33,722 nucleotides of DNA from a virus: positions 1 through 33,722 of IMG/VR virus record IMGVR_UViG_3300032085_000333; one strand, written 5' to 3'. Numbering within the stretch: position 1 is the stretch's first letter; each line of letters opens with the position of its first letter. This document shows positions 4,384-33,419 of this stretch, piece by piece. Made by a program: the position numbers and the translations under genes. The notes under the pieces were generated by a model. The model was not told where the DNA came from. It saw only the letters and a program-made list of their open reading frames with translations, and did not search any database.

Positions 4384-4601
4384 TTGTAATAGGATTTTTA
4401 TTAATAGTAGCATTTGTATTTGTAATCATTGGGCATAACAAAGGTGCTGATGTTTATATAAGTCCTATTAAAGGAATAATGTTTGGCTTTTTATATCACA
4501 AAGAACAAGAAACACAAGGAGACGAGTATACCCTGCAATGTTTGTTAGGGGTAATTAGTATAACTGTGATATGGATAAACCAACAGAATGGCTCTCAATA
4601 G
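4380..4601 (+). CDS. Small membrane protein, 73 aa
   Basis: Two hydrophobic segments (about residues 2-18 and 54-67) flank a polar middle. The start overlaps the helicase stop (ATGA), and the 3' end overlaps the sigma-like gene by 31 bases. The function is unknown; early phage membrane proteins sometimes affect superinfection or host envelope functions. Support comes from overlap geometry and hydrophobicity rather than a recognised family. Confidence 0.6.
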   Translation: MIVIGFLLIVAFVFVIIGHNKGADVYISPIKGIMFGFLYHKEQETQGDEYTLQCLLGVISITVIWINQQNGSQ

Positions 4602-5134
4602 TCTTTAAAAGGCACAAAGAGTGGATTAAAATAGTAAATAGCTTTGGCGAGTTTAACTATGCTGAGGATTTTGTGCAAGAAATGTATCTTGTAATATATA
4701 AATATGCAGATGAAGATAAAATTATTAAGAATGGCAATGTCAGTCGTGGCTACATTTATTTTACTCTTCGTTCTATCTATTTCCAATATTATAATAGTAA
4801 AAAAAGAATTGACAAAATTTATATTGATGATAATGAATCTACCATCCAAATTCAAGACCATTCGGAAATGGATGAACAAGTAGCTTATAATAATTTATGT
4901 CAACTAATAGATGAACATATAGAAAATTGGAGATGGTATGAAAGAAAAATGTTTACATTATATAGAGACTCTAGTTTAAGCATAAGAGGAATAGCTGCTG
5001 AAACTGGAATAAGTTGGGTGAGTATATACCATACTTTAAAAAAAGCTAAAAATGAAATTAAAGAAAAATTTAATGACAATTATATAGATTATAAAAACCA
5101 AGATTATGAAAGAATCCAAAAAAACAAAAAGTAA
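4571..5134 (+). CDS. Small sigma-70/ECF-like transcription factor
   Basis: The 187-residue protein has the two-part layout of ECF-type sigma factors. A region-2-like helical segment spans 28-80 (NYAEDFVQEMYLVIYKY, then GYIYFTLRSIYFQYYNSKKR). An acidic linker (81-105) follows, and then a region-4-like helix-turn-helix at about 136-160 (LSIRGIAAETGISWVSIYHT), where a sigma factor would read the -35 element. The C-terminal tail is very basic. It is expressed from the early region, before the structural genes, and is the obvious candidate to direct host RNA polymerase to the TAACAAA-N12-TTATTGT sites found only before late genes. That link is inference. It could instead be an HTH regulator without sigma activity. 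Confidence 0.75.
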   Translation: MDKPTEWLSIVFKRHKEWIKIVNSFGEFNYAEDFVQEMYLVIYKYADEDKIIKNGNVSRGYIYFTLRSIYFQYYNSKKRIDKIYIDDNESTIQIQDHSEMDEQVAYNNLCQLIDEHIENWRWYERKMFTLYRDSSLSIRGIAAETGISWVSIYHTLKKAKNEIKEKFNDNYIDYKNQDYERIQKNKK

Positions 5135-10559: not shown

Positions 10560-11013
10560 ACTAGTAAAAGAAATAGTAGAAGATTATTACAAACTAAAGA
10601 TAGATACTAAGACACGACAAAGAAAGTATGTAGAAGCAAGAGCAATTTATTACAAACTACTAAGAGAAAACAGTAGGATGAGTCTAGAAGCAATAGGCAA
10701 AACAGTAAATAGAGACCACGCTACTGCTATACATTCTTTAAAACAAATAAAAGACTGGTTAGAATATGACAAAGAAATAAAAAGAGATTACAATACTATC
10801 AATAGTAGGTTACAGGATGCAATGAGATTAAACCCTGAACTATTTAAGGATGTACTAACGATGGAAAGTTTTTATGAGATAGAATACCACAGACTAAAAC
10901 ACGATAGCGACATTAAATATAAATCACTTTTAACTAAATATCACTTCTTAAAATCACGTTTAGAAAAGTACGAACCTAATAGAGTTGAACGTGGAGAATT
11001 TGATCTAGTTTAA
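10549..11013 (+). CDS. DnaA domain IV-like DNA-binding protein
   Basis: The first half matches the DNA-binding domain IV of DnaA: RKYVEARAIYYKLL (25-38), where DnaA has its R..AR..A..L helix, and IGKTVNRDHATAIHS (49-63), which equals the DnaA signature around DHTTVxHA that reads DnaA boxes. There is no AAA+ ATPase domain; the second half (about 75-154) is an extended helical tail. It probably binds a phage origin or acts as a regulator. It ends the early block, two bases before the first late-type motif at 11011 (the motif begins within its stop codon). Confidence 0.75.
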   Translation: MTSKLVKEIVEDYYKLKIDTKTRQRKYVEARAIYYKLLRENSRMSLEAIGKTVNRDHATAIHSLKQIKDWLEYDKEIKRDYNTINSRLQDAMRLNPELFKDVLTMESFYEIEYHRLKHDSDIKYKSLLTKYHFLKSRLEKYEPNRVERGEFDLV

Positions 11014-11036
11014 CAAAATAAAGTAAATCTTATTGT
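11011..11036 (+). promoter_or_regulatory. Late promoter-like motif 1 (before terminase)
   Basis: TAACAAAA at 11011-11018 and TTATTGT at 11030-11036, 19 bases start to start. This is the same bipartite element found before six structural genes. It lies 32 bases before the small terminase ATG. The two halves also form an imperfect dyad (TAACAA versus TTATTGTTA), so an operator is an alternative reading. Confidence 0.7.
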
Positions 11037-11068
11037 TATAGTAGAATCATTAATGAAATTTTTTGATT

Positions 11069-11308
11069 ATGGATAAAAGAAAGTTTAACGGTGGTAATAA
11101 AAATGCAGGTAGAAAACCTAAAGCGGAAGAAGTTGCATTGATTGAAAAACTAACACCATTAGAACCATTAGCGTTTGAAGCATTGCAAAAAGGATTAGAA
11201 CAGAAAGACTTTAAATATGTTCAGTTGTTTTATAATTACTATGCAGGTAAACCAAGAGAAACTAAAGATATTACTATCAACGAAGATTTACCTTTATTTA
11301 TTGATTGA
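11069..11308 (+). CDS. terS: Small terminase subunit
   Basis: The 79-residue protein begins MDKRKFNGGNKNAGRKPKAE, the basic GGxNxxAGRKPK start typical of Bacteroidetes phage small terminases, followed by helices that would form the oligomerising core. It recognises phage DNA for packaging with the large subunit encoded next. I prefer ATG at 11069 over an in-frame TTG at 11063. It is short for a small terminase, and its TGA overlaps the large-subunit ATG. The position after the first late motif supports the assignment. Confidence 0.75.
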   Translation: MDKRKFNGGNKNAGRKPKAEEVALIEKLTPLEPLAFEALQKGLEQKDFKYVQLFYNYYAGKPRETKDITINEDLPLFID

Positions 11309-12477
11309 TGCAGGTTAAACAAACCATAGCATTAAAAAAGTTAAGGAAGTTAGATAAAAGGATTAGAATAATTAAAGGGGGTACAAGTGCTTCCAAGACT
11401 ATTTCAATACTTTGTCTACTTATTGACTATGCCATTAAAAATGAAGGTAAAGAAATAAGTGTAGTAAGTGAATCAATACCTCATCTTCGTAGGGGAGCTC
11501 TAAAGGACTTTCTTGGTATACTTAATGGGTTAAATAGGTACAAAGATAATCAATTCAACAAGAGCACTCTAAAATACACTTTTACAAATGGAAGCTATAT
11601 AGAGTTCTTTAGTACAGACCAACCTGATAAGCTACGTGGAGCAAGAAGAACAGACTTATATATTAATGAGTGTAACAATGTACCCTTTGATGCTTATACA
11701 CAATTAGCAATAAGAACAAGTGGCACGGTCTGGTTAGACTATAACCCATCTAACTTGTTTTGGGTAGACAAAGAATTAATAGGAAAAGAAGATACTGACT
11801 ACATCACACTAACTTATAAGGACAACGATGCACTACCAGAATCTATTGTAAAAGAAATAGAGAAAGCTAAAGAGAAAGCAAAGACTTCTACGTATTGGGC
11901 AAATTGGTGGAGAGTATATGGGTTAGGAGAAACAGGAAGTTTAGAAGGTGTGTGTATTCCTGACTGGAAAGAAATAGATACAATACCAAACGAAGCAAGG
12001 TTGTTAGCCTATGGAATGGATTTTGGATATAGTGTTGACCCTACAACATTAATTGCTTTGTACAAATGGAACGATGCTTACATATACGATGAGGTTCTAT
12101 ATAAAAAAGGAATGCTTAATAGAGACATAAGTAGATTCTTATCACAGCTTGATATAAAAGAAAACATTGTAGCTGATTCAGCTGAACCAAAATCAATAGC
12201 AGAACTACAAGGGTATGGACATTCTGTATATGGAGTAAGCAAAGGAAGAGATTCAGTAGTATATGGATTGAACCTAATAAACCAAAACGAAATATATGTA
12301 ACTGCAAGAAGTAAGAACCTTAAAAGAGAACTAGCAGGATATGTATGGGCAAAAGACAAAGAAGGTAACCAACTACAAAAACCAACAGGAGAACATCCTG
12401 ACTGCATAGATGCAGCTAGGTATGTATTAACAGACCAATTAGAGAATCCTAATAAAGGAGAATATTTTATCTATTAA
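11308..12477 (+). CDS. terL: Large terminase subunit (ATPase-nuclease)
   Basis: The 389-residue motor has Walker A GGTSASKT at 24-31, Walker B DLYINEC with catalytic Glu121, a coupling segment near 139-150 (GTVWLDYNPSN), and an RNase-H-like nuclease domain with Asp238 (YGMDFG), Asp290 (IVADSAEP) and Asp365/Asp368 (HPDCIDAARY). It drives DNA into the prohead and cuts the concatemer. The Walker A with Ser-Ala-Ser resembles PBSX/SPP1-type terminases, so headful packaging is likely. A permuted genome with overlapping ends would fit that. ATG at 11308 overlaps the upstream TGA; an in-frame TTG at 11305 is less likely. Confidence 0.93.
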   Translation: MQVKQTIALKKLRKLDKRIRIIKGGTSASKTISILCLLIDYAIKNEGKEISVVSESIPHLRRGALKDFLGILNGLNRYKDNQFNKSTLKYTFTNGSYIEFFSTDQPDKLRGARRTDLYINECNNVPFDAYTQLAIRTSGTVWLDYNPSNLFWVDKELIGKEDTDYITLTYKDNDALPESIVKEIEKAKEKAKTSTYWANWWRVYGLGETGSLEGVCIPDWKEIDTIPNEARLLAYGMDFGYSVDPTTLIALYKWNDAYIYDEVLYKKGMLNRDISRFLSQLDIKENIVADSAEPKSIAELQGYGHSVYGVSKGRDSVVYGLNLINQNEIYVTARSKNLKRELAGYVWAKDKEGNQLQKPTGEHPDCIDAARYVLTDQLENPNKGEYFIY

Positions 12478-12484
12478 TTTTTTC

Positions 12485-12510
12485 TTGTTAAAAAAAAGTT
12501 TATATATTTG
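12485..12510 (+). promoter_or_regulatory. Host-type promoter of post-terminase cassette
   Basis: TTG at 12485-12487 with TATATATTTG at 12501-12510 contains a perfect TAnnTTTG box (12503-12510) and shares the TTGTTAAAAAA core and spacing with the sites at 6295 and 8707. It starts a two-gene unit lying inside the late region, unlike the late-type motifs around it. Confidence 0.7.
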
Positions 12511-12540
12511 TATAAACAAAGTTTAATTAATACAATAATT

Positions 12541-12735
12541 ATGGAAAACAATACAGAGTACACAATTATCAAAGAAGTAATTGCAAAAGAAAACAGGAAG
12601 CAAGTAATAAAAACAATATTAGGCGGTGCACTTATGGGTATAGGTGGAGCATTAAGTTTTGTGTTCTTTTTAAATATGTTAGTAGCATTTGACTGGATTA
12701 GTGATGCAATAGTAAGAATCATTGGAGGATTATAA
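12541..12735 (+). CDS. Small membrane protein, 64 aa
   Basis: A charged N-terminal 25 residues (NRKQVIK) precedes one long hydrophobic segment (about 27-50, ILGGALMGIGGALSFVFFLNML) with Gly-rich packing, and then a short second hydrophobic patch. ATG at 12541 is chosen because it follows the host-type promoter by 30 bases and has an A-rich leader. It is independently transcribed from the terminase and tail genes, suggesting a host-interaction role such as superinfection exclusion; that is inferred. Confidence 0.6.
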   Translation: MENNTEYTIIKEVIAKENRKQVIKTILGGALMGIGGALSFVFFLNMLVAFDWISDAIVRIIGGL

Positions 12736-12736
12736 A

Positions 12737-12946
12737 ATGAGACAAGCATGCTGGTATGAAGGAATCTACATAATACAGAGACCAATAGTAAGAGGTATGA
12801 AAAATGTAGATGTTAAATTAGATATGGATATTAGAGGACAAATAAAAAAAGGAAAGCATACATATAAACAAAACAGTATTGAGTTAGAAAACAAAATAAC
12901 TGAAGCTTATGAATACTGTTATAAAAGATTTATATTAGGACATTAA
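12737..12946 (+). CDS. Small basic protein of unknown function, 69 aa
   Basis: This soluble, Lys/Tyr-rich protein (CWYEGIYIIQRPIVRGMKN, then KKGKHTYKQNSIELENK) starts one base after the preceding stop. Together with the membrane protein it forms a self-contained transcription unit closed by the terminator at 12979. No family is recognised. Confidence 0.55.
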   Translation: MRQACWYEGIYIIQRPIVRGMKNVDVKLDMDIRGQIKKGKHTYKQNSIELENKITEAYEYCYKRFILGH

Positions 12947-12978
12947 GAATTTTCATTTTGTTAGTTTAGTAGGAAATT

Positions 12979-13009
12979 GGGTAGTAGAGATACTATCCTT
13001 TTTCTTTTT
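12979..13009 (+). terminator. Rho-independent terminator closing post-terminase cassette
   Basis: An 8-bp stem, GGGTAGTA (12979-12986) with TACTATCC (12991-12998) including one G-T pair, encloses a GAGA loop and is followed by TTTTTCTTTTTA. It separates the host-type cassette from the late motif that begins immediately downstream. Confidence 0.85.
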
Positions 13010-13035
13010 ATACAGTTTACCTATTTAATTATTGT
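13010..13035 (+). promoter_or_regulatory. Late promoter-like motif 2 (tail block), degenerate left half
   Basis: TTATTGT at 13029-13035 is preceded by ATACAG at 13010-13015, whose C is 16 bases before TTATTGT as in the other six sites. The left half is the weakest of the set. The motif is followed by ATATAT and then the ATG at 13042, so the right half ends 6 bases before the start codon. Confidence 0.6.
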
Positions 13036-13041
13036 ATATAT

Positions 13042-13704
13042 ATGAAGATTGAAATAAACGTTCCTGATACACTTGGAGAGATTACACTAGGTCAATATCA
13101 AAAGTTTGAAAAGCTAAATACTAAAGAGAATCAAGACACTACCTTTTTACTTCAGAAGATGGTACAGATATTTTGTAATCTTGATTTAAAGGATGTAGCT
13201 ACAATTAAATACAAAAGCGTACAAGAGATTGTAATGCACTTAAATAAAGTGTTTGATACCAAACATACATTAATACCTACTTTTGAATTAGGAGGCGTTA
13301 AAATGGGTTTTATACCTGTACTAGACGATATGACACTTGGAGAATATATAGACCTTGACGAAAACTTAGGAGATTGGGAAACGATGCACAAAGCAATGAG
13401 TGTTTTATATAGACCAGTTACATATAGTAAAGGTCATAAATACCAAATAGAAGATTACACAGGAATGGTAAATGCCGAAGCAATGAAACAAGCACCTTTA
13501 GATGTAGTATTTGCTGCTATGGTTTTTTTTTATCATTTAAGCAACGAGTTAACACAAACTATCCTGAACTATTTACAGCAGGTAACGGAGAAGGAAATGA
13601 CTACTCAACAGAAGCAAACTTTGGGAATAAATGGGGATGGTATCAGTCAATCTATGGAATCTCTAAGGGGGATGTTACCAAGTTTAATGACATTACAAAA
13701 CTAA
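13042..13704 (+). CDS. Tail assembly chaperone-like protein, zero-frame product
   Basis: The 220-residue product is the first gene of the tail block. The N-terminal 160 residues (ITLGQYQKFEKL at 14-25, GFIPVLDDMTLGEYIDLD at 89-106, YRPVTY at 123-128) have the layout of the chaperone-like protein seen before the tape measure in Bacteroidetes siphophages. At codons 161-163 (GTT TTT TTT) the mRNA runs through nine T, 13523-13531. A shift of -1 there enters a second open frame ending at 13784. Chaperone genes of this kind are classic sites of programmed -1 frameshifting (lambda G/GT). The stop at 13704 leaves a 76-base gap unusual for this genome. Function is inferred from position and frameshift layout. 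Confidence 0.7.
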   Translation: MKIEINVPDTLGEITLGQYQKFEKLNTKENQDTTFLLQKMVQIFCNLDLKDVATIKYKSVQEIVMHLNKVFDTKHTLIPTFELGGVKMGFIPVLDDMTLGEYIDLDENLGDWETMHKAMSVLYRPVTYSKGHKYQIEDYTGMVNAEAMKQAPLDVVFAAMVFFYHLSNELTQTILNYLQQVTEKEMTTQQKQTLGINGDGISQSMESLRGMLPSLMTLQN

Positions 13705-13784
13705 ACGTACACGAATGTTTAATGTATTTAGCATTTGAAAAAGACAAAGTAGAACTAGAAAAACAATTAATAAAACGTAGATGA
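13530..13784 (+). CDS. -1 frame extension of tail chaperone (frameshift product)
   Basis: From the T9 run the -1 frame stays open for 84 codons to a TGA at 13782-13784. It reads like true protein: NYPELFTAGNGEGNDY, then KWGWYQSIYGISKGDVTKF and LNVHECLMYLAFEKDKVE. A WGWYxSIY...GD+TKFxxITKL...CLxYLxFEKxK pattern is typical of the C-terminal part of these phage proteins. Its stop overlaps the next ATG as ATGA, the usual coupling here. The fused product would be about 247 residues. The alternative is a one-base homopolymer sequencing error, in which case this is the only C-terminus. The shift could also lie elsewhere in the overlap 13531-13704. Confidence 0.7.
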   Translation, partial: LSFKQRVNTNYPELFTAGNGEGNDYSTEANFGNKWGWYQSIYGISKGDVTKFNDITKLNVHECLMYLAFEKDKVELEKQLIKRR

Positions 13785-14239
13785 AAGGTTTTTACAATTT
13801 AACGGACAAATTAAAAGATGCTTTAATAGCAGAACCATTTGTAAATACAGTAACCTTTGGAAGTTTAGACGATGTAGATTTAAACAAACAAACTATATTT
13901 CCATTATCTCATATAACGGTAAACAACACAACAGTAGGAAGTAAAACACTTACGTTTAACGTTAGTATATTAGCTATGGATATTGTAGATATAAGCAAGG
14001 CAGAAACTACTGATGTATTTGTAGGAAACGATAACGAACAAGACGTATTGAATACTCAATTAGCTTTACTTACTAGAATCATTAACATATTACAACGTGG
14101 TGACTTATATACTGAATTGTACCAAGTACAAGGAGATGTAAGTTGTGAGCCATTTGTAGATAGATTTGAAAACAAATTAGCAGGATGGGCAGCAACTTTT
14201 GATGTGGTAGTACAAAACGATATGACAATATGCGACTAG
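13781..14239 (+). CDS. Putative tail terminator/completion protein
   Basis: The 152-residue protein starts with FYNLTDKLKDALIAEPFVNTVTFG and ends FENKLAGWAATFDVVVQNDM. This alpha/beta layout, with a first helix, a central strand pair and a long strand at the end, resembles tail-completion proteins of the gpU type found in Bacteroidetes phages. It lies between the chaperone and a neck-like protein and overlaps the next gene by 10 bases. The assignment is moderate; it rests on pattern and position. Confidence 0.55.
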   Translation: MKGFYNLTDKLKDALIAEPFVNTVTFGSLDDVDLNKQTIFPLSHITVNNTTVGSKTLTFNVSILAMDIVDISKAETTDVFVGNDNEQDVLNTQLALLTRIINILQRGDLYTELYQVQGDVSCEPFVDRFENKLAGWAATFDVVVQNDMTICD

Positions 14240-14751
14240 AAAAAACAGAAGCAGCTTTAGAGGCATTTAAAAAGTTTGTCATACAACAATCACGGTCAAG
14301 GTTGTCTAAAAGCAATAAGAACGTTTCTAAGGAACTTTATAATAGTTTAAAGGGTAATATAAAGGTTATGCCTAATTCTATTGCTGTGGAGTTTGAAATG
14401 GAAGATTACGGTGTATTTCAAGACAAAGGGGTTAGTGGTACTGAAAAGAAATATAATACACCTTATAGTTATAAATCTAAAATGCCACCTGTAAAGCCTT
14501 TAGCTGATTGGGCAAAGAGTAGAAACATAAGGCTAAGAGATGAAAAAGGAAAGTTTAAAAAAGGAAGTTACAATACAATAGGGTTTTTAATAGCAAGAAG
14601 CATATATAGAAAAGGTATCAAACCTTCTTTGTTTTTTACTAAACCATTTGAACAAGGATTTAAAAAACTACCTGATGAATTAATAAATAGTTTTGGCTTA
14701 GACGTAGAAGATTTCTTAGCCTTTACACTTAAAGAAGATAGATTAAGATGA
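14230..14751 (+). CDS. Neck/tail-completion protein (HK97 gp10-like)
   Basis: The 173-residue protein contains EMEDYGVFQDKGVSGTEKK (55-73), PPVKPLADWAKSRNI (about 90-104) and FLIARSIYRKGIKPSLFFTKPFE (about 117-139). This is the typical signature of the gp10-like neck family in Bacteroidetes siphophages. It would help to join head and tail. It overlaps both neighbours, consistent with stoichiometric late expression. Confidence 0.65.
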   Translation: MRLEKTEAALEAFKKFVIQQSRSRLSKSNKNVSKELYNSLKGNIKVMPNSIAVEFEMEDYGVFQDKGVSGTEKKYNTPYSYKSKMPPVKPLADWAKSRNIRLRDEKGKFKKGSYNTIGFLIARSIYRKGIKPSLFFTKPFEQGFKKLPDELINSFGLDVEDFLAFTLKEDRLR

Positions 14752-16343
14752 GTACAAAGATAAATGTTAGAAGTCCGTTTTATTTAAAGTATGGAGAACC
14801 TGCTTTACCTGCGGTTGCTCTTGATTGTGCAACAATTAATTTACAAGGTTTTGCAGTAGACCAATTTGGTAATGTTACTTTACCTGATTCGGATTATGGT
14901 ACAATAGCATCTTATACATCTTCAGCAGGAGATTTTACTGATGGTAGGTTTGCCACAGTAGGAAGTGATACAAGTAGAACAGTAACGTTTTCCATAAGTA
15001 TACCACCGAACTTTAGTAATGCAGGAGATACAACAATAGACTGTGATGCAACTGCTACACAACCTCAATACGTTTGTACAGGAGGTGTAACACTAAATGG
15101 TAGTATTCCTAATCAGTCAATAGATACCGATGGAGATATAGCAACAATAGATTTATCATCTTACTTTACTCAAGGTGTTGCTCCAATTGCTAACTATACT
15201 ATTACTAATAATTATTTAGATTTCTTTACTCATAGTATTAATGGAAATACATTAACGATAATTGGTACAAGTAGAGCAGGAACTAAAAATATGTATGTAG
15301 AGGCAAGTGATGCAGACCCATTAACTTGTAATGCTACACAAACAATACAAATCACAACTATTGCACAAGCAACTTATACGTGTACCGATGCTTATATATC
15401 AGGAGGTAGTATTACGCAAACAGGAGTAATAACAAACCCTACTGTAAATGGAACTATTACTGCGGTAAAAGATTCAAGTGGAGGTAGTACAATAACAAGT
15501 TATCCTGCTAATACAACAGGAAGCGATAGAAATGTAACATTATATTTTGATATAACTGTACCTACTGGGTATTCTAATAGTGGTAGTACTGTAGAATGTT
15601 CTAAAACATTTTCACAACCTACCGCAGCTTTACCAACCTTTACCTGTGCAATAGCTTCTTTAACAAATCAAGCTGTATATTCATCAGGTGCAATAGTAAA
15701 AGGTATTTCAAACGTAGGAACTATATCAAGTTTTACACCCATAGGTTTTGATGCAGTAACAAGTGATACATCAAGAACAGTTACTTACTCAATTACCCCT
15801 CCTGCAAGTGGTTACTCTAATAGTGGAGGTTCAGATATAACTTGTGATATTACAATGACACAACCTGCAATTAAACCAACAGCAGGAAATATATATTGGT
15901 ATACAGGTGGCGTAGGGTTACCGTTTATGACTAAAGCACAATTCCAAGCAGTAGACCCATCTGTTTCAACTTTGAATTTAAACTTTAATACCTATGAAGG
16001 CGCATTAGAAACACAGGGCATATATGACCCTAAAAAGAAAGTAACAAGCAAAGCGGTAATAGTATTAAAACTATCTTCTACAAACGTAGAAAGTCTTGTA
16101 AACACTTATGCTTTTATAGATAGAGGTACAGGTAATCCTTATTTGTGGGCAACTAATAATTACTCACAGTACAACCCAACAGGAGGTGTTTATTGGAGAA
16201 TTACAAAAGTACAAGAATCAGGAGCATATATATCACCAGCTTTCTTACAAACAAGTCATTATATGAAATTAGAACCATCAGGACTTATAACAGAAATTTG
16301 GTTTGTTGATTGGTCAGCAGCAACCTTTACTAAAATAGCTTAA
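14748..16343 (+). CDS. Repeat-containing beta-rich tail protein, 531 aa
   Basis: A Thr/Ser-rich, strand-rich protein contains three internal repeats of about 33 residues, at 75-106, 259-291 and 340-373. Each has the form (T/D)(S)RxVT.S...P..(Y/F)SN(S/A)G...CD...QP, probably the last strands of Ig-like modules. Cysteines at the module ends (99, 110, 284, 300, 366) could pair. The C-terminal part (about 378-531, starting GNIYWYTGG) is a separate aromatic domain. Low charge and repeated beta modules suit a surface-exposed tail protein, perhaps carbohydrate binding. The specific role is unknown. Confidence 0.65.
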   Translation: MSTKINVRSPFYLKYGEPALPAVALDCATINLQGFAVDQFGNVTLPDSDYGTIASYTSSAGDFTDGRFATVGSDTSRTVTFSISIPPNFSNAGDTTIDCDATATQPQYVCTGGVTLNGSIPNQSIDTDGDIATIDLSSYFTQGVAPIANYTITNNYLDFFTHSINGNTLTIIGTSRAGTKNMYVEASDADPLTCNATQTIQITTIAQATYTCTDAYISGGSITQTGVITNPTVNGTITAVKDSSGGSTITSYPANTTGSDRNVTLYFDITVPTGYSNSGSTVECSKTFSQPTAALPTFTCAIASLTNQAVYSSGAIVKGISNVGTISSFTPIGFDAVTSDTSRTVTYSITPPASGYSNSGGSDITCDITMTQPAIKPTAGNIYWYTGGVGLPFMTKAQFQAVDPSVSTLNLNFNTYEGALETQGIYDPKKKVTSKAVIVLKLSSTNVESLVNTYAFIDRGTGNPYLWATNNYSQYNPTGGVYWRITKVQESGAYISPAFLQTSHYMKLEPSGLITEIWFVDWSAATFTKIA

Positions 16344-16344
16344 T

Positions 16345-17331
16345 ATGGCACTTAAAACAGTACAATTACAAGTATATATATATGAGGGTACATCTGGCTC
16401 TTATTCAAACGGAGATTTAAAATATACAATACAAAACTCTATAATAGGAGAAGATACAAATGTAGTATTTGAAATAGCAGAACTTGTTAGGGATTATTTA
16501 TATCTAACATTTAATGATGATTATTTATCTAAAACTATTTGGGTTACAACAATAGCTACTTTGTTAGATGAAAACAATAACGTATTTACTTATGGCTCAC
16601 CAATTACAAATACATATTTAGCAACAGATGGGTATGGTTATTTTGAAGATGGAGCAAGTCCTGAATTATCAAGAAATGCTTTAATGACTGCTAATAGTAT
16701 TTACTTACCTGAAAACACAGCAGGAAAACTACCAATATACGCAGAGGGTGTAGGTAAAGTTACTATTGATAACGTAGATACGCAAATAACCGACAACGAC
16801 AATTCAAATCAAAAGATACAATACATTACTATTCCTGCTAATAGTTCTATTGTACAAGTGTATGATACAAACGATACAACACTACTTAAAACAATAAAAG
16901 TCACTAATGTTTGTGAACCTAAGTTTACACCTTATAAAGTAACTTTTGTAAATAAATATGGTGCATATCAAGATTTATGGTTCTTTAAAAAAGCGATAGA
17001 ATCATTTAACGTAACAGATGAAAAATATAAAAGAAACACCTTATCTAATAGCACAGCAACATACGCAAAATATTCAGGTCAAGAAGAAAGGTATAATACA
17101 AATGCAACAAAAAGCATTACGCTTAATACAGGTTTTATAAACGAGGATAATAACTCTACTATTGAGGAATTGTTTTTATCTGAAAATGTATGGATTAAAT
17201 ATGATGGGGATACATTACCTGTAATACCCAAAAGTAAATCACTTACATTAAAAACAAGTTTGAACGATAGGGTATCAAACTACACTATTGATTTTGATTT
17301 TGCGTTTAATAAGATAAACAATGTACGTTAA
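16345..17331 (+). CDS. Tail structural protein, 328 aa
   Basis: The protein begins with a strand-rich domain (LKTVQLQVYIYEGTSGSY) and has in its second half FVNKYGAYQDLWFFKKAIESF (about 200-220), followed by SITLNTGFINEDNN and LFLSENVWIKYDGD. The NKYGxxQDLWFFKK...LNTG...L.SE.VW order is shared by tail proteins of Bacteroidetes siphophages. It begins one base after the preceding gene and overlaps the next (TAATG). Probably a tail-tip or baseplate component; the exact position in the virion is unknown. Confidence 0.65.
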   Translation: MALKTVQLQVYIYEGTSGSYSNGDLKYTIQNSIIGEDTNVVFEIAELVRDYLYLTFNDDYLSKTIWVTTIATLLDENNNVFTYGSPITNTYLATDGYGYFEDGASPELSRNALMTANSIYLPENTAGKLPIYAEGVGKVTIDNVDTQITDNDNSNQKIQYITIPANSSIVQVYDTNDTTLLKTIKVTNVCEPKFTPYKVTFVNKYGAYQDLWFFKKAIESFNVTDEKYKRNTLSNSTATYAKYSGQEERYNTNATKSITLNTGFINEDNNSTIEELFLSENVWIKYDGDTLPVIPKSKSLTLKTSLNDRVSNYTIDFDFAFNKINNVR

Positions 17332-20012: not shown

Positions 20013-20149
20013 TAGAAAATATATTAAACTTATTGGAGTTTGCAAGAAACGAAAAGTGGAAAGGGCAGTATATAGATATTGCTTTAGGTAAAAACAAATA
20101 TCCTGAATCAATTAAGGAAGCGTACCAACAATTTAGAAAAGAACTATGA
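20009..20149 (+). CDS. Small protein of unknown function, 46 aa
   Basis: A 46-codon ORF overlaps the upstream stop and the tape measure start, both as ATGA. The peptide MIENILNLLEFARNEKWKGQ... is helical. Overlaps at both ends make it very likely translated. No function is recognised. Confidence 0.6.
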   Translation: MIENILNLLEFARNEKWKGQYIDIALGKNKYPESIKEAYQQFRKEL

Positions 20150-21759: not shown

Positions 21760-21763
21760 TAAA

Positions 21764-21789
21764 TAACAAAATAAGATAAAATTTATTGT
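21764..21789 (+). promoter_or_regulatory. Late promoter-like motif 3 (before protease)
   Basis: TAACAAAA at 21764-21771 and TTATTGT at 21783-21789, 19 bases start to start, followed by TTAAAT and then ATG at 21796. The right half ends only 6 bases before the start codon, so a transcript starting downstream of it would be leaderless or nearly so. Confidence 0.75.
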
Positions 21790-21795
21790 TTAAAT

Positions 21796-22794
21796 ATGGA
21801 TATAATAGAACTATTTATAGATGAAACAGATGAGGTATCAGGAATTGAAGCTATTAGCGTAGTAGAAAATCCAGCTATTGAATCAGACTTTATTGCATTA
21901 AAGAACCAAGAGTTTAAACTTGCAGAGGTTGATAAGGAAAAGCGTATTTTAATGGGTGCTGCTTTAATACCTAACAAACCAATTTACAGAACTAGTGGAG
22001 AACAAGAATATTATATTTACTTTTCTAAAGATACAGTACGTAAAGCAAGTGAATTATTCTTTATAAAAGGTAATCAAAACAATGCAACACTAGAACACCA
22101 ATTAGAACTTAAAGGATTAACTGCTGTTGAAAGTTGGATAGTAGAAAGTGAACAAGATAAAAGTAGAATGTACGACTTAGACGTACCTATTGGAACTTGG
22201 ATGGTATCTATGAAGGTTTTAAATGATGATGTTTGGAAACAAGTTAAAGAAGGTAAGGTAAAAGGCTTTTCAATAGAGGGTTATTTTGCTGACAAGTTAG
22301 AAAGACCAAACGAACCTAATAATCTATCTGAAATAGAAGATGAATATTTATTAGAGGAACTAAAAGAACTTCTACAAGAAGAACAATTAGAATCATATTC
22401 AGATTATCCTGATAGTGTTTCAAACAATGCTAAACGTGGTATTGAACTAAACGAAAAAGTAGGAAATAAGTGTGCTACACAGGTTGGAAAAGTAAGAGCG
22501 CAACAGTTAGCGAATAAAGAACCTATTAGCGAAGCAACCATAAAAAGAATGTTTAGTTACTTATCAAGAGCAGAGGTATATTATGATAAGGGTGATACAG
22601 AGTCTTGTGGTTATATATCTTATTTGTTATGGGGTGGAAAAAGTGCTAAATCTTGGGCTGAAAGTAAAATAAAAAAATTCGAAGGTATAGCTGATGAAGT
22701 TAACTTAGAAGCTCCTTGTTGGGAAGGATATGAAATGTATGGATGGAAAACTAAAAATGGTAAAAAAGTACCTAATTGCATACCTAAAAAATGA
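21796..22794 (+). CDS. XkdF-like prohead protease with C-terminal fusion
   Basis: The N-terminal part (about 45-165: ILMGAALIPNKPIYRTS, ATLEHQ with His101, LDVPIGTWMVSMKVLND, VKGFSIEGYF at 155-163) matches the XkdF-like prohead protease family, which trims scaffold and capsid during head maturation. An acidic linker (170-200) leads to a second domain at 203-293 (YPDSVSNNAKRGIELNEKVG, CATQVGKVRAQQL, SYLSRAEVYYDKGD, SYLLWGGKSAKSWAESKI), a module often fused to such proteins in phages and of unknown role. The location just before the scaffold and capsid genes supports the assignment. Confidence 0.75.
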   Translation: MDIIELFIDETDEVSGIEAISVVENPAIESDFIALKNQEFKLAEVDKEKRILMGAALIPNKPIYRTSGEQEYYIYFSKDTVRKASELFFIKGNQNNATLEHQLELKGLTAVESWIVESEQDKSRMYDLDVPIGTWMVSMKVLNDDVWKQVKEGKVKGFSIEGYFADKLERPNEPNNLSEIEDEYLLEELKELLQEEQLESYSDYPDSVSNNAKRGIELNEKVGNKCATQVGKVRAQQLANKEPISEATIKRMFSYLSRAEVYYDKGDTESCGYISYLLWGGKSAKSWAESKIKKFEGIADEVNLEAPCWEGYEMYGWKTKNGKKVPNCIPKK

Positions 22795-23159
22795 GAAAAT
22801 ACAAAGAAAGAAATCCTAGTCCACAAAACGACAAAAGAGCGTGTATGTGCAAAGATGGTACTTACTCACGAAAGTGTTGTGATGGTAGTTATCAAGCACA
22901 AGGTATTGGAAACATTACTGGCGAATCTATGGCAGGTGTTTGGAATAGTTATTTGATAACCGCTTGTAGCGATGGTCATACTCACCACGCTCATATTCAC
23001 GATACTACTTTAACAGTAGGCAAAACTTACTATTTAAGTTTAGAAAACAATCACAATGAATGTTATACAATTACTTCAACACACCATTCAGAAGGAATAC
23101 ATATAAATTCAGCATCTATTGTCTATGATGATTGCGTAGAGTGTGAAGCAGCAAACTAA
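22791..23159 (+). CDS. Cys/His-rich virion-associated protein
   Basis: The 122-residue protein contains ACMCKDGTYSRKCCDGSYQA at 17-36 followed by QGIGNI, a pattern recurring in Bacteroidetes phage head regions, then a His-rich beta region (HTHHAHIHD) and a C-terminal CVEC. The clustered Cys and His could bind zinc or iron or form disulphides. It overlaps the protease stop (ATGA). A head or decoration role is inferred from location. Confidence 0.65.
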   Translation: MRKYKERNPSPQNDKRACMCKDGTYSRKCCDGSYQAQGIGNITGESMAGVWNSYLITACSDGHTHHAHIHDTTLTVGKTYYLSLENNHNECYTITSTHHSEGIHINSASIVYDDCVECEAAN

Positions 23160-23164
23160 AAATA

Positions 23165-23190
23165 TAACAAAACGTTAAATATATTATTAT
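23165..23190 (+). promoter_or_regulatory. Late promoter-like motif 4
   Basis: TAACAAAA at 23165-23172 and TTATTAT at 23184-23190 (one mismatch to TTATTGT), again 19 bases start to start. The ATG at 23206 is 15 bases further on. Confidence 0.65.
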
Positions 23191-23205
23191 AATAAAAAAC
23201 ACATT

Positions 23206-23589
23206 ATGAAACCAAGCATACATAAAATATTAGCAAAGTTAAATAAGGAAAAAATAGATTTAAGTTTAAAAGGATATACAACTAAAGTAACTATAACTGA
23301 TTTTTTTAAAAGACAAAGAGATAATGCTAGTATTATTAATGAAATAATTAGTAAAGGTCAAAAAATTTTTAATAAGTTAAATGATTTTGAATTAGAATTA
23401 AAATCAGCTCGTAGCGTAACGGATAGAGCTGAAATGGAAATTTCAAAATTAAAAAACACAATGAAAGAAAATGACATTGATACTTCTTCTTTAAACCAAA
23501 AAGAAAAACAAATAGCAAAAGATAGGCAACAAATAAATGAAATGCTAAAAGTAGTAGATTTACATAAAAAAAGAATACGTTCTTTATAA
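23206..23589 (+). CDS. Coiled-coil head-region protein, 127 aa
   Basis: A basic N-terminal 45 residues is followed by continuous heptads (about 50-125, including RAEMEISKLKNTMKEND and KEKQIAKDRQQINEML), a strong coiled-coil prediction. It sits between the protease and the scaffold-like protein and has its own late motif. It may be a scaffold or assembly cofactor; no family is recognised. Confidence 0.65.
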   Translation: MKPSIHKILAKLNKEKIDLSLKGYTTKVTITDFFKRQRDNASIINEIISKGQKIFNKLNDFELELKSARSVTDRAEMEISKLKNTMKENDIDTSSLNQKEKQIAKDRQQINEMLKVVDLHKKRIRSL

Positions 23590-23594
23590 AAATA

Positions 23595-23620
23595 TAACAA
23601 ACACATTTATAATTTATTGT
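23595..23620 (+). promoter_or_regulatory. Late promoter-like motif 5 (scaffold and capsid)
   Basis: TAACAAA at 23595-23601 and TTATTGT at 23614-23620, 19 bases start to start, then AATATAT and ATG at 23628 (7 bases). It drives the scaffold-like and capsid genes, whose transcript is closed by the strong hairpin at 25222. Confidence 0.75.
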
Positions 23621-23627
23621 AATATAT

Positions 23628-24245
23628 ATGAAAGCAACAGATATGTTAAACAAAGTAAAAGAACTTGTTGGGGTAGAATTATCCGAAGAAGTTAAGTTGG
23701 CTCAAGCCACATTAGAAAACGGTACTGTTATTGAAAGTGAATCTTTTGAAGCAGGAAGCGAAGTATTCATTGTAACAGAAGATGAAATGGTAGCTTTACC
23801 AATCGGAGAATACAAACTTGAAGATGGAGAAACTTTAATTGTAGAAGAAGAAGGAATTATTGCTTCTGTTGGTGCAGTTGAAGAAGAAGTTGAAGAAGAA
23901 GTAGAAGCCGCTGAAGACAAAAAAGAAGAAATGGAATATGCTACTAAAGCAGAACTTTCTGAAATTAAGGCAATGATTGACGAAATCAAAGCAATGATTG
24001 AACCTAAAGAAGAAATGAGCGAGGAAGTAGAATCTAATACTATTAAATCAGAGGAAACAACTACAAAAACGGTTTACGCATCAGAAGAAGAGGTTAAAGA
24101 AGAATTGTCTATTGAAACACCAGTAGAAAAAATTACTCATAACCCAGAGGCTGAAACAAAACCAAACTTAAACCTTTATGCGCAAAAAAGAAATTTAACT
24201 ACTGCGGATAGAGTACTACAAAAAATAGCAAACATTAAAAAATAA
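23628..24245 (+). CDS. Acidic scaffold-like protein, 205 aa
   Basis: The protein has a small N-terminal domain (1-85, with ENGTVIESESFEAGSEVFIV) followed by a very Glu-rich coiled-coil body (about 86-165, EEEVEEEVEAAEDKKEEMEY) and a basic C-terminal end. An acidic helical body with a basic tail is typical of scaffolding proteins, whose C-terminus binds the capsid shell. It sits directly before the major capsid gene and after the protease. No sequence family is decisive. Confidence 0.7.
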   Translation: MKATDMLNKVKELVGVELSEEVKLAQATLENGTVIESESFEAGSEVFIVTEDEMVALPIGEYKLEDGETLIVEEEGIIASVGAVEEEVEEEVEAAEDKKEEMEYATKAELSEIKAMIDEIKAMIEPKEEMSEEVESNTIKSEETTTKTVYASEEEVKEELSIETPVEKITHNPEAETKPNLNLYAQKRNLTTADRVLQKIANIKK

Positions 24246-24257
24246 ATAAATTAAATT

Positions 24258-25202
24258 ATGGCAACTACAACAAGTATTACAACTACTTATGCTGGAGAAT
24301 TTGCAGGAGAATATATTTCTGCTGCTCTTTTAAGTGGTTCAACTATTGAAAACGGTGGAATTACCGTAAAACCAAACGTAAAGTTTAAAGAAGTAATCAA
24401 AAAAGTATCTACTGACGATATCGTAAAAGATGCAGGATGTGACTTTGACCCCACTTCTACTATTACACTTACAGAAAGAGTTTTACAACCTGAATTTCAG
24501 CAAGTAAATTTACAATTATGTAAAAAAGATTTCCAAAATGATTGGGATGCAATTTCTATGGGATATTCTGCATTTGACAGTTTACCTCCTTCATTTTCTG
24601 ATTTCTTAATCTCTCACGTTGCTTCTAAAGTAGCACAGAGAACTGAAACATCTATTTGGGAAGGTACAACAGCAACTAATGGACAGTTTGATGGATTAAC
24701 TACTTTACTTGATGCAGATGCTGCTCACACAGGTGGTTCTAAAATTGCAGGGAGTGCAGCAATTGGTGCTGCTTCTACAGTTATCACGGAATTAGGTTCT
24801 ATTGTAGATGCAATCAATTCAAATATCTACGGAAGTGAAGATTTAAATATCTATATTTCTCAAAATATTGCACGTGCTTACGTAAGAGCATTAGGAGGAT
24901 TTGGTGCAGCAGGATTAGGTGCAGCAGGTACTAACGCAATGGGTACTCAATGGTGGAATAACGGAAGTTTATCATTTGATGGAGTTAAATTATTCGTAGC
25001 AAACGGATTAGCGGATAACACAGCTATCGCTGCTGAAAAATCTAACTTATTCTTTGGTACTGGTTTATTAGCAGACCACAATGAAGTAAAAGTTATTGAT
25101 ATGGCTGACATTGATGGTTCTCAAAATGTAAGAGTTGTAATGAGATTTACAGCAGGTGTACAATACGGAATTGTAGAAGATATCGTATCTTACGGAATCT
25201 AA
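24258..25202 (+). CDS. Major capsid protein
   Basis: The 314-residue protein has no Cys-rich or coiled regions and reads as an HK97-fold capsid of the Bacteroidetes siphophage type: LTERVLQPEFQQVNLQLCKKDF (72-93), WDAISMGYSAF, SHVASKVAQRTETSIWEGT (about 119-137), an Ala/Gly-rich loop (GGFGAAGLGAAGTNAMG), and a strand-rich C-terminus ending VVMRFTAGVQYGIVEDIVSYGI. It follows the scaffold gene and is followed by a strong terminator, as expected for the most abundant virion protein. Codon choice looks more uniform than in the early genes. Confidence 0.85.
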   Translation: MATTTSITTTYAGEFAGEYISAALLSGSTIENGGITVKPNVKFKEVIKKVSTDDIVKDAGCDFDPTSTITLTERVLQPEFQQVNLQLCKKDFQNDWDAISMGYSAFDSLPPSFSDFLISHVASKVAQRTETSIWEGTTATNGQFDGLTTLLDADAAHTGGSKIAGSAAIGAASTVITELGSIVDAINSNIYGSEDLNIYISQNIARAYVRALGGFGAAGLGAAGTNAMGTQWWNNGSLSFDGVKLFVANGLADNTAIAAEKSNLFFGTGLLADHNEVKVIDMADIDGSQNVRVVMRFTAGVQYGIVEDIVSYGI

Positions 25203-25221
25203 TAAAAAGATTAACTAACTT

Positions 25222-25263
25222 AAAGGGTGGGTAAGCCGAATTTGTGCCTACCTACCCTTTTTT
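25222..25263 (+). terminator. Strong rho-independent terminator after capsid gene
   Basis: A 12-bp stem (25222-25233 with 25249-25260, one G-T pair) with a 15-base loop is followed by TTT. It ends the scaffold-capsid transcript. No late motif is seen between it and the next ATG at 25277, so downstream genes up to 25825 rely on read-through or on a promoter that I cannot see. Confidence 0.9.
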
Positions 25264-25276
25264 AATATAAAAAACT

Positions 25277-25825
25277 ATGGCTTGTGATTTAACTAGAGGG
25301 CGTAAAGAACCGTGCAAAGATGTAGTAGGTGGTCTTAAAGCTGTTTATTTTACTGATTTCGGAGATTATGGAACGGTAACAGAAACAGACGATGAGATTA
25401 CTGATATGACAGGGACTTTTACTGCTTTTAAATATGAATTAAAAGGAAATAGTAGCTTTGAACAGGCTATTACTTCTTCACGTGAAAACGGAACGACTTT
25501 CTTTGACCAAACTTTAACACTTACTTTGAAAAAATTAAGTAAAGAAGATAACAAAGAATTGAAACTATTAGCTTACGGTAGACCTCACGTTGCAGTTGAA
25601 GATTACAACGGTAATGTATTTGTAATGGGTCTTGAACACGGAGCGGAAGTAACAGGAGGAACTGTTTCTACAGGAGCTGCAATGGCTGACTTATCAGGAT
25701 ATACTTTAACGCTAAATGCACAAGAGTTAAAACCTGCTAACTTTGTTAATGCACCAACTGCTGCTGACCCATTCGCAGGAATGAGTAGCGCAACTGTAAC
25801 TGTTACAGAAGGTACAAACTCTTAA
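25277..25825 (+). CDS. Putative major tail tube protein
   Basis: The 182-residue protein begins ACDLTRGRKEPCKDVVGGLK, a conserved start in Bacteroidetes phages, followed by a beta-rich core with FEQAITSSRENGTTFFDQTL and a C-terminal GGTVSTGAAMADLSGYTLTL...ELKPANFV. The glycine-rich loop, long strands and ending with ...L..QE..PA..V fit tail tube (gpV-type) proteins. It sits between the capsid and portal genes, which is unusual for a tube protein, so a head-decoration role is an alternative. Confidence 0.6.
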   Translation: MACDLTRGRKEPCKDVVGGLKAVYFTDFGDYGTVTETDDEITDMTGTFTAFKYELKGNSSFEQAITSSRENGTTFFDQTLTLTLKKLSKEDNKELKLLAYGRPHVAVEDYNGNVFVMGLEHGAEVTGGTVSTGAAMADLSGYTLTLNAQELKPANFVNAPTAADPFAGMSSATVTVTEGTNS

Positions 25826-25848
25826 ACCGAGTTTTATTTTGATAAATT

Positions 25849-25874
25849 AGGGGGCTTTATGCCCTCTTTTTTTT
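25849..25874 (+). terminator. Rho-independent terminator after tube-like gene
   Basis: A 7-bp stem, AGGGGGC (25849-25855) with GCCCTCT (25861-25867) including one G-T pair, encloses a TTTAT loop and is followed by a run of T. A late motif begins 11 bases downstream. Confidence 0.85.
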
Positions 25875-25884
25875 GCTTTATAAA

Positions 25885-25910
25885 TAACAAAAATCAAATA
25901 ATATTATTGT
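25885..25910 (+). promoter_or_regulatory. Late promoter-like motif 6 (portal unit)
   Basis: TAACAAAA at 25885-25892 and TTATTGT at 25904-25910, 19 bases start to start, then ATATAT and ATG at 25917. It is placed directly after a terminator, as a promoter should be. Confidence 0.8.
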
Positions 25911-25916
25911 ATATAT

Positions 25917-26258
25917 ATGATAGTATTAGAAGAAAGTGCATCAGCACAAACAATCAATTTTATACCTAGACAATTTGTAAGCGGAAATACTTATAATGTA
26001 ACTATTGTAAATGAAACTACAAATACAGAGGTATATAATCAAGATACAACTGAAATAACAGAACACTTATATCATAATCAATATAGTGCGGTGTTTCCAG
26101 TAAAGCAAGATATAACTTACACAATAACGGTAACAGGAAGTGAAGTAGTATATAAGGATAAAATCTTTTGTACTAATGAATCAGATGTTACTTCTTATAG
26201 CGTAAACGAAGGTGCATACATTTTCAATGATACAGATAACGAATTTATTACATTATAA
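25917..26258 (+). CDS. Small beta-rich structural protein, 113 aa
   Basis: The protein reads as alternating strands with Thr/Val/Ile (SGNTYNVTIVNETTNTEVY, then YTITVTGSEVVYKDKIFCT). This layout is common in Bacteroidetes phage genes before the portal. It overlaps the portal start by one base. A head-surface or joining role is inferred. It is the first gene of the portal transcript. Confidence 0.6.
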   Translation: MIVLEESASAQTINFIPRQFVSGNTYNVTIVNETTNTEVYNQDTTEITEHLYHNQYSAVFPVKQDITYTITVTGSEVVYKDKIFCTNESDVTSYSVNEGAYIFNDTDNEFITL

Positions 26259-27997
26259 TGGATAACTTACATATAGTTAATTTAGCTTCATATAATAGAC
26301 CTAAAATAAGCGAGGATAAAAACCGTGAATGGGTAGAGTATGGAGAAAATAACGACTACTATTCTTATTTGATTAATCTTTACACAGAATCAACTACAAA
26401 CAATGCTATTATAAATGGTATTAGTAATATGATTTACGGTAAAGGTTTAGATGCTTTAGATAGCAATAGAAAACCAAACGAATACGCTTCAATGCGTTCT
26501 ATATTTTCTGATAGTTGTTTAAGAAAAATATCACTTGATTTAAAACTATTAGGAGAAGGTTCTATACAGGTTCTTTACAAGGATAAAAAAGTAGTAAAAG
26601 GAGAACACTTTCCACGTCAAACATTACGAGCAGAAAAATGTAATGAAGATGGTGAAATAGAAGCATACTATTACTATCACGATTGGGCAAACCTCAAAAG
26701 AAGTGATACACCAAAAAGAATAGCAGCATTTGGATTTGGTAACGGTACTGAACCAGAGATAAAAATTATTAAAAAATACGTTTCAGGATATGATTACTAC
26801 TGTCCTGTAGATTATCAAGGTGGTTTAGCTTATGCAGAACTAGAAAGTGAGGTATCTGATTACCTTATAAACGATGTACAAAACGGTTTTAGTGGTACTA
26901 AGGTAGTAAACTTCAATAACGGAGTACCTGACCAAGAAAAACAAATACAAGTCAAAAACGATGTAATGCGTAAATTGACTGGTGCAAGAGGTGAAAAGGT
27001 AGTAATTGCATTTAACAACAATGCAGAATCAAAAACAACAGTTGACGATATACCATTAAACGATGCACCTCAACACTATGAATATCTTTCAAATGAATGT
27101 TCAAATAAGTTAATTGTAGCACACAGGGTAACAAGTCCTTTACTTTTAGGAATTAGAACTGAAAACAATGGTTTAGGCTCTAATGCAGACGAAATAAAGA
27201 CCGCTGCGCTACTTTTTGACAATATAACTATAAAACCATACCAAGAACTAATTTGCGATGCCCTAGACGATATTTTGGCAATCAATGGAATTAGTTTAAA
27301 ACTTTACTTTAAGACTTTACAACCTTTAGCGTTTATTGAAACAGATAATGCTATTACAGACGAAGCTAGAGAAGAAGAAACAGGAGTAAAAGATGAACTA
27401 ACATTGTCTAAAGAAGAAAGTTTTGACGATGATGAAATGTTTGATTTGCTTAGCGAGTTTGGTGAAGAAGAAGATTTAGAAAATTGGGAATTAGTTGATG
27501 AAAGAGAAGTTGATTATGACCAAGAAGAAACATTAGATAAAATGATTGGTTTAGCTTCAACAGGAACTGCAAGACCAAATGCTAAAAGTGAACAAGATGG
27601 AGAAGCAGATAATATGCGTTTTAAAGTACGTTATCAATATGCACCATTAAAAACACAAGCAAATAGTAGAGAGTTTTGTAAGAAAATGGTAAGTGCTAAA
27701 AAGATTTATCGTAAAGAAGATATTACTCAAATGAGTACTAAAGCGGTAAATGCAGGTTGGGGATTAAGTGGAGCAGCTACTTATGATATTTGGTTATATA
27801 AAGGCGGTGGAGGTTGCCACCATTTTTGGATGCGTAAAACCTATATGGCTAAAGATGTACAACCTGATGCAACAAACCCAAACGCAGAAGTAAGCGTAAA
27901 CAAAGCAAAAAAGGAAGGTTTTAAACCTGAAACAAACGACCCTAAAGTGGCTAAACGACCAAAGGATATGCCCAATCAAGGATTTGTAAATAAATAA
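26258..27997 (+). CDS. Portal protein with C-terminal head-morphogenesis-like domain
   Basis: The 579-residue protein has a portal core in its first 370 residues: ENNDYYSYLINLYTESTTNNAIIN (30-53), KISLDLKLLGEGSIQVLY, a central segment with VPDQEKQIQVKNDVMRKLTGA, HRVTSPLLLGI near 290, and a stem-like helix beyond. It forms the dodecameric ring at the capsid vertex where the terminase docks. After an acidic linker (about 370-430), a separate domain at about 450-560 (RFKVRYQYAPLKTQANSREFC, GAATYDIWLYKGGGGCHHFW) with paired Cys/His resembles MuF-type or zinc-binding segments usually encoded as a separate gene. Location after the tube-like gene is unusual. Confidence 0.8.
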   Translation: MDNLHIVNLASYNRPKISEDKNREWVEYGENNDYYSYLINLYTESTTNNAIINGISNMIYGKGLDALDSNRKPNEYASMRSIFSDSCLRKISLDLKLLGEGSIQVLYKDKKVVKGEHFPRQTLRAEKCNEDGEIEAYYYYHDWANLKRSDTPKRIAAFGFGNGTEPEIKIIKKYVSGYDYYCPVDYQGGLAYAELESEVSDYLINDVQNGFSGTKVVNFNNGVPDQEKQIQVKNDVMRKLTGARGEKVVIAFNNNAESKTTVDDIPLNDAPQHYEYLSNECSNKLIVAHRVTSPLLLGIRTENNGLGSNADEIKTAALLFDNITIKPYQELICDALDDILAINGISLKLYFKTLQPLAFIETDNAITDEAREEETGVKDELTLSKEESFDDDEMFDLLSEFGEEEDLENWELVDEREVDYDQEETLDKMIGLASTGTARPNAKSEQDGEADNMRFKVRYQYAPLKTQANSREFCKKMVSAKKIYRKEDITQMSTKAVNAGWGLSGAATYDIWLYKGGGGCHHFWMRKTYMAKDVQPDATNPNAEVSVNKAKKEGFKPETNDPKVAKRPKDMPNQGFVNK

Positions 27998-28000
27998 GAA

Positions 28001-28504
28001 ATGGCAGAAGCATTATTAATAACTAGAAAAGACGTAGTAAAGTTTACTGCAATGAATGGTAATGTAGATACTGATAAATTTATTCAGTATGTAAAGATTG
28101 CTCAAGACGTACATATTCAAAATTATGTAGGAACTGAACTTTTAAAGGCTATTCAAACTAAAATTACAAATAGTACATTAACAGGAGATTATTTAAGCCT
28201 TGTAACGGACTATATAAAGCCTATGCTGATACATTGGGCAATGGTTGAATACTTACCCTTTGCAGCATATACAATCGCTAATAAGGGCGTTTATAAGCAT
28301 AGTTCAGAAAACTCTGAAAACGTATCAAAAGAGGAAGTGGATTTCTTAATGGAAAAGGAACGTGATATTGCACAATATTATACAGATAGATTTATATCTT
28401 ATATGAGTTTTAATGCAAGTTCAAAGTTTCCTGAATACTACACAAATAATAACGAGGATGTATATCCTGATAAAGATGCAAGTTTTGAAGGATGGGTGCT
28501 TTAA
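28001..28504 (+). CDS. Head-tail adaptor-like protein (DUF6712-like)
   Basis: The 167-residue helical protein reads ITRKDVVKFTAMNGNVDTDK at the start, HIQNYVGTELLKAIQTKI at 38-55, and YIKPMLIHWAMVEYLPFAAY at 71-90, then NVSKEEVDFLMEKERDIAQYY. This is the pattern of the DUF6712 family found beside portal genes in Bacteroidetes phages and resembling gp6-type connectors. It begins 3 bases after the portal stop. Confidence 0.7.
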   Translation: MAEALLITRKDVVKFTAMNGNVDTDKFIQYVKIAQDVHIQNYVGTELLKAIQTKITNSTLTGDYLSLVTDYIKPMLIHWAMVEYLPFAAYTIANKGVYKHSSENSENVSKEEVDFLMEKERDIAQYYTDRFISYMSFNASSKFPEYYTNNNEDVYPDKDASFEGWVL

Positions 28505-28608
28505 AATATAAACCAAAACAGGAAAACGTGAATAAGTTAAAACAGTACTTAGCTTATATAACAAAAACCAAAAAAAGTAATTGTAATAATATAAATAACA
28601 TTAAATGA
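28492..28608 (+). CDS. Small basic ORF, 38 aa
   Basis: A 38-codon ORF overlaps the adaptor gene end by 13 bases and the next start by 4 (ATGA). The peptide is Lys/Asn-rich (MGALKYKPKQENVNKLKQYL). Late motif 7 lies inside it, so it is transcribed only from upstream. It could be a real gene or only a translational link between neighbours. Confidence 0.4.
   Translation: MGALKYKPKQENVNKLKQYLAYITKTKKSNCNNINNIK
28559..28584 (+). promoter_or_regulatory. Late promoter-like motif 7 (fibre unit)
   Basis: TAACAAAA at 28559-28566 and TAATTGT at 28578-28584 (one mismatch), 19 bases start to start. The next ATG at 28605 is 20 bases further on. It should drive the tail-fibre genes. Confidence 0.65.
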
Positions 28609-33411: not shown

Positions 33412-33419
33412 ATTATAAT

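Follow-up and report, generated by a model that had tools for sequence, protein, structure and literature searches.

The window, that is, the whole stretch of 33,722 nt analysed here (IMG/VR record IMGVR_UViG_3300032085_000333), encodes an ECF-type sigma factor in its early region (4571..5134, plus strand) which, associated with the RNA polymerase core of the host, very probably reads seven late promoters, four of which are predicted to give leaderless messages. Region 4 of this sigma factor would recognise AACAAA as the -35 element and region 2 would recognise TTATTGTA as the -10 element, the spacing between the two being set by the sigma factor itself. The RNA would start about 6-9 nt past the -10 element. 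With such a start, transcription at four of the seven sites would begin at or within a few nucleotides of the AUG, and the message of the leading gene in each of these late operons would be leaderless. As the early genes display a host-type TAHHTTTG promoter, synthesis of the phage sigma factor would be the early-to-late switch. We infer the promoter identity, the binding of the sigma factor at these sites, the RNA start and the timing from sequence and modelled structure.

The initial annotation had described a bipartite motif, TAACAAA-N12-TTATTGT, recurring with a fixed spacing, and this description is sustained by the counts. The window contains four exact copies, at 11011, 21764, 23595 and 25885, compared with 0.003 expected from dinucleotide shuffles. 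Near-exact copies, defined by 0 mismatches in the left half and 1 in the right half, amount to six on the plus strand and none on the minus strand (0.047 expected), the single right-half mismatches being located at 23165 (TTATTAT) and 28559 (TAATTGT). When gaps of 0 to 30 are scanned in the window, gap 12 alone stands out. If three mismatches in all are allowed, 30 matches are found against 26.6 expected, no excess over chance, and the signal is therefore carried by the strong sites. The scan with a spaced matrix, which had been proposed as a check, gives the same picture, with strict counts and scores well above those of shuffled or random sequence. A matrix trained exclusively on other contigs (L002-L081), with the window left out, matches exactly the six strong sites, with scores of 22.7-35.3; random genomes under the same matrix reach a mean top score of 6.6, and the best of 60 scores 17.7. 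All six lie on the plus strand and in front of late genes, as expected from the claim that the motif precedes terminase or structural genes and never early ones. A scan for E. coli-type sigma-70 promoters gives matches that are rarer than in shuffles.

The first site (11011..11036) is an exact copy ahead of the small and large terminase genes, and both its position and the long gap of 32 nt to the ATG at 11069 are conserved. The exact copy at 21764..21789 lies 6 nt before the ATG (21796) of a head maturation protease-like gene, and has orthologous sites in all three -10 classes described below. It is followed by the site at 23165..23190, located 15 nt before the ATG at 23206, and by the exact copy at 23595..23620, 7 nt before the ATG at 23628. 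The exact copy at 25885..25910 precedes a 113-aa gene (ATG 25917, 6 nt on) and the portal gene (26258-27997), and is also orthologous across the three -10 classes. The last site (28559..28584) obtains the top matrix score of the window despite its mismatch; a 55-aa ORF begins 20 nt on, at 28605, and a tail-fibre-like gene from 28783. The site at 13010..13035, 6 nt before the ATG at 13042, has a weak -35 element (ATACAGT), scores under the matrix threshold and is uncallable on its own. However, orthologous sites in three related genomes (G014, G001 and G008) read ATACAAA-N12-TTATTGT with the same gene downstream, and ATACATA is also found among the orthologues; for this reason the site is genuine, and its earlier listing as a degenerate seventh copy is upheld. 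Two sites directly follow terminator-like hairpins, as had been noticed before: a hairpin with an 8-bp stem and a T-tract (12979..12998, plus strand) ends about 12 nt before the 13010 site, and another with a 7-bp stem and a T-tract (25849..25867, plus strand) ends 18 nt before the 25885 site. The proteins encoded at 21796-22794 and 23628-24245 match the first and second half, respectively, of a single PHROG family (24921), as though the insertion of two genes had divided what was once one protein.

The same layout is found in related phage genomes, where it had been suggested to look for it. In the best 80 of hundreds of viral contigs retrieved with the portal protein, the exact motif is present 98 times at gap 12 and at no other gap between 0 and 24. 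A sequence-naive search for bipartite words before genes returns AACA-N16-ATTG as its top word (105 observed, 2.9 expected). In nine further clade genomes the outside-trained matrix detects three to six sites each; apart from two weak minus-strand matches, all of these precede late genes and have the orientation of the coding strand. The upstream regions of the genes orthologous to those starting at 13042, 21796 and 25917 align across lineages, with the distance to the ATG mostly kept and a different -10 word. When the late region is compared with phages by megablast, no match is obtained. The strict orientation, the fixed spacing, the association with late genes, the conservation at orthologous starts and the presence of a phage ECF-like sigma factor all point to phage-specific late promoters, as initially proposed. 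Also in line with that proposal, the consensus of the sites, T(T/A)ATTGTA, lacks TTTG and is unlike the host-type TAHHTTTG.

The candidate reader of these promoters, P0001, is a protein of 187 aa. Among PHROG families it matches 1740, a sigma factor family (E 1.3e-9); it also matches TIGR02985, the ECF model for Bacteroidota (E 6e-10, below the curated cut-off), and TIGR02937 (E 1.5e-8; 34.5 bits, the cut-off being 42.9). TIGR02937 is matched by all 25 members of the sigma family, the best at 1.5e-9, and a region 2 signature, ED(F/I)VQEMY, is common to the family. The AlphaFold2 model (mean pLDDT 81.6) shows two helical domains with a disordered linker between them (80-97). As modelled, the protein would have the layout of ECF (group 4) factors, sigma2-linker-sigma4, with neither region 1.1 nor region 3. 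Its closest solved folds are E. coli SigE and mycobacterial SigH and SigL, and the second domain of the model can be superposed, within 1.6-1.8 Å, on region 4 of SigE in complex with -35 DNA. The promoters of SigE and SigW carry an AAC-bearing -35 element and a short fixed spacing, to which the window motif is similar. A profile search with the sigma factor gives a weak match to SigL (E 0.054), and tblastn against phages finds no match even at E 0.01. The one match of phmmer against the PDB, to an antibody, was dismissed as chance. Each of the seven clade contigs that are 28 kb or longer encodes a sigma2-linker-sigma4 protein; some related fragments are without it, and these may be incomplete.

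Three sigma lineages can be distinguished, with the -10 words ATTGTA, CGTTA and RGTTA and with nearly equal spacing between -35, -10 and ATG at orthologous genes. Contigs whose sigma factors are roughly 25-36% identical display CAAA-N14-CGTTA-7-ATG or AACA-N15-RGTTA-7-ATG, the spacer of the RGTTA form usually being one base shorter. A scan for the CGTTA form returns 120 stretches, 50 of them with homologues of window genes. The CGTTA lineage includes Nonlabens phage P12024S, whose portal protein shares 38% identity with that of the window. Its gp33, which is small and carries an annotated sigma region 2, is tied to the P0001 family by profile comparison alone (E 1e-13), and AAC(AAA)-N14-CGTTA-6/7-ATG is found before six late genes, the ATG coinciding with the annotated starts. 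Sites with ATTGT and an ATG at +6/7 number 31 in 10 genomes with a window-type sigma factor and 2 in 18 others. In the corresponding counts of CGTTA sites, those of the L129 group are a lower bound, since the regular expression is one base off for TGCAAA variants. On the sigma tree the three -10 words need just two changes, the minimum possible, with labels assigned by hand from the motif sites; the long branches of this tree (P12024S, G033) are uncertain. Sigma gene and late region may share their ancestry, so that this agreement amounts to concordance rather than proof of causation. A bipartite-word search on the sigma-gene loci alone (L098, L096 and L129 groups) gives no credible motif, whereas full contigs gave the motif; the top words in the L098 loci were discarded because they derive from conserved coding sequence. 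One contig (L414, contig G047) has 77% of its large-terminase residues in common with the window and a portal of about 46%, together with a diverged sigma factor and CGTTA promoters, a mosaic that suggests recombination near the terminase gene.

These data also bear on the origin of the sigma factor that acts at the late promoters. They could be read not by P0001 but by one of the host's own alternative (ECF) sigma factors, or by host polymerase assisted by a phage activator. Bacteroidota hosts hold many ECF sigma factors, and the closest cellular relative found, a distant host FecI-type ECF sigma factor returned by a search of bacterial genomes, lies beside FecR and a TonB-dependent receptor, with no prophage at that match. 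Nevertheless, we regard transcription by a host factor as improbable: a phage sigma factor is encoded in every near-complete clade contig and the -10 word shifts along the sigma tree, and a host sigma factor offers no explanation for lineage-specific -10 words.

The preferred reading, a phage sigma factor acting at these promoters, has a further consequence for translation. Among 143 distinct sites, the ATG follows TTATTGT after 6 nt in 73 and after 7 nt in 32 (together 105/143). In the window the distance is 6-7 nt for the ATGs at 13042, 21796, 23628 and 25917, and 15-32 nt at the other three sites. A scan of IMG/VR for the motif, blind to gene content, served as control: among the matches listed, an ATG is located at +6/+7 in 78/105 for contigs with homologues of window genes and in 2/35 for contigs without them. 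At the promoters of the phage sigma factors phiEco32 gp36 and 7-11 gp47, the element and the RNA start are 6-9 bp apart (PMC8948821), and an ATG at +6/7 is consistent with a late transcript start 6-9 nt from the motif. An ATG 6-7 nt past the -10 element implies that most late mRNAs should be leaderless, with most late messages probably beginning at the start codon itself. In F. johnsoniae, by contrast, leaders exceed 10 nt in 87% of the transcripts for which a probable promoter is given (PMC6847099). The small-terminase site is the exception, its 32 nt to the ATG being shared by the window and its closest relatives, with a comparable longer gap in the CGTTA lineage. The segment concerned (11037-11068) thus stays long across relatives, and at this position those with CGTTA have an inverted repeat, TTGATTAATCAA.

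The fixed distance of 6-7 nt between the right half and most start codons could also mean that the motif acts in RNA, as a translation or stability element whose right half signals the start site. This seems very improbable, because the 12-nt gap between the halves is still kept where the ATG lies 15-32 nt or further away, as expected of an element that is recognised in DNA. In addition, relatives have CGTTA or RGTTA at the same genes, and sites are present right behind terminators, a position that requires transcription to start anew.

Alternatively, the motif could be the operator of a repressor or activator such as a DnaA-C-like protein, the true promoter lying elsewhere. At 11011, TAACAA and TTGTTA form an inverted repeat, and just upstream (10549-11013) a protein with a DnaA C-terminal DNA-binding domain (Pfam E 1.8e-12) is encoded, whose gene ends right at the first late promoter. 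However, the symmetry is missing from the consensus and from other lineages, the orientation and the distance to the ATG are strictly maintained, and the site consensus contains no host-type TAHHTTTG; we consider an operator extremely improbable. The dyad-operator and DnaA-box readings were both dropped, as symmetry or consensus is lacking.

The early genes differ from the late ones in their promoters. In each of the eight clade genomes that have a close orthologue of the first early gene, this gene is preceded, at a distance of 39-68 nt, by the host -7 element TAHHTTTG. In the window this candidate early promoter is TAATTTTG (1476..1483, plus strand), 53 nt ahead of the ATG at 1537. With such an element and a leader of 39-68 nt, early genes look host-read and leadered, while late genes look phage-sigma-read and mostly leaderless. 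Phage-sigma promoters fused to start codons would mean that the sigma switch changes the mode of translation initiation as well. It seems rather likely, then, that a widespread flavobacterial-type phage group runs a dedicated leaderless late regulon, unlike its early genes and the mostly leadered mRNAs of the host, and that the promoter geometry of this regulon persists as sigma factor and -10 word diverge together. The window phage itself is marine, and its host is probably a flavobacterium, judging from P12024S. A further host-type element, TATATTTG at 12503, and the terminator-like hairpin at 12979 bracket two small ORFs within the late region; the segment (12503-12998) resembles an accessory cassette that the host would transcribe from a separate promoter, and among the genomes searched its first ORF has relatives in G014 and G001 alone.

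Phage sigma factors with dedicated late promoters are known from phiEco32 and 7-11. As in those phages, a sigma factor is encoded in the window and a recurring motif occurs before late genes alone. Salmonella phage 7-11 gp47 shares with the window phage the use of bipartite late promoters (GTAAtg-16-aCTA) and host-sigma early promoters (PMC8948821), but 7-11 is an enterobacterial podophage with another consensus, and the text of PMC8948821 that was searched holds no leaderless layout. The sigma factor gp36 of phiEco32 likewise drives late genes, its middle/late promoters having a -10 element (tAATGTAtA) that resembles TTATTGTATA by eye (PMC8948821). However, phiEco32 has a single-element promoter and a sigma factor without region 4; in the window, the -35 element (AACAAA) is as conserved as the -10 element, and region 4 is predicted by the model. 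The sigma2-linker-sigma4 architecture is shared with Bacteroidota FecI-type ECF sigma factors (TIGR02985) and E. coli SigE, although, in contrast to the FecI type, no anti-sigma or outer-membrane receptor partner was noted for P0001, which scores below the family cut-offs and would serve a phage late regulon. P12024S (genus Inhavirus) is similar in its related portal, its small sigma factor and its late layout, and differs in its CGTTA -10 element. The literature searched contains no description of P12024S promoters, nor does the searchable literature, which leaves out most subscription journals, describe the regulation of this phage group. New are the ECF-type sigma factor in flavobacterial-type phages, the lineage-variable -10 element and the fusion of promoters to start codons. 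The sigma gene, the fixed ATG distance and the lineage-specific -10 variants go beyond the initial annotation.

These features would provide a concrete early-to-late switch for a well-represented environmental, largely marine phage group, and predict that structural genes are translated from leaderless messages in hosts whose own mRNAs are mostly leadered (one relative studied). A sigma gene linked to a lineage-specific promoter code constitutes a natural data set for the co-evolution of sigma factor and -10 element. P12024S is an isolate with a cultured host, which makes the model directly testable.

Two other features of the window are of note. An alpha-glucosyltransferase-like gene (6744-7937; PHROG 2888, E 6e-68) is located in the early region, adjoining thymidylate synthase-like and MazG-like genes, and DNA modification is a possible function of this neighbourhood. 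The ends of the window overlap (1-657 and 33216-33722), and the genome is thus probably circularly permuted, with a length of about 33.2 kb. The overlapping copies are not identical: besides substitutions, a segment of about 150 bp (about 190-339) with a small lipoprotein-like ORF is present in the start copy and absent from the end copy. The copies are strain variants joined in one assembly.
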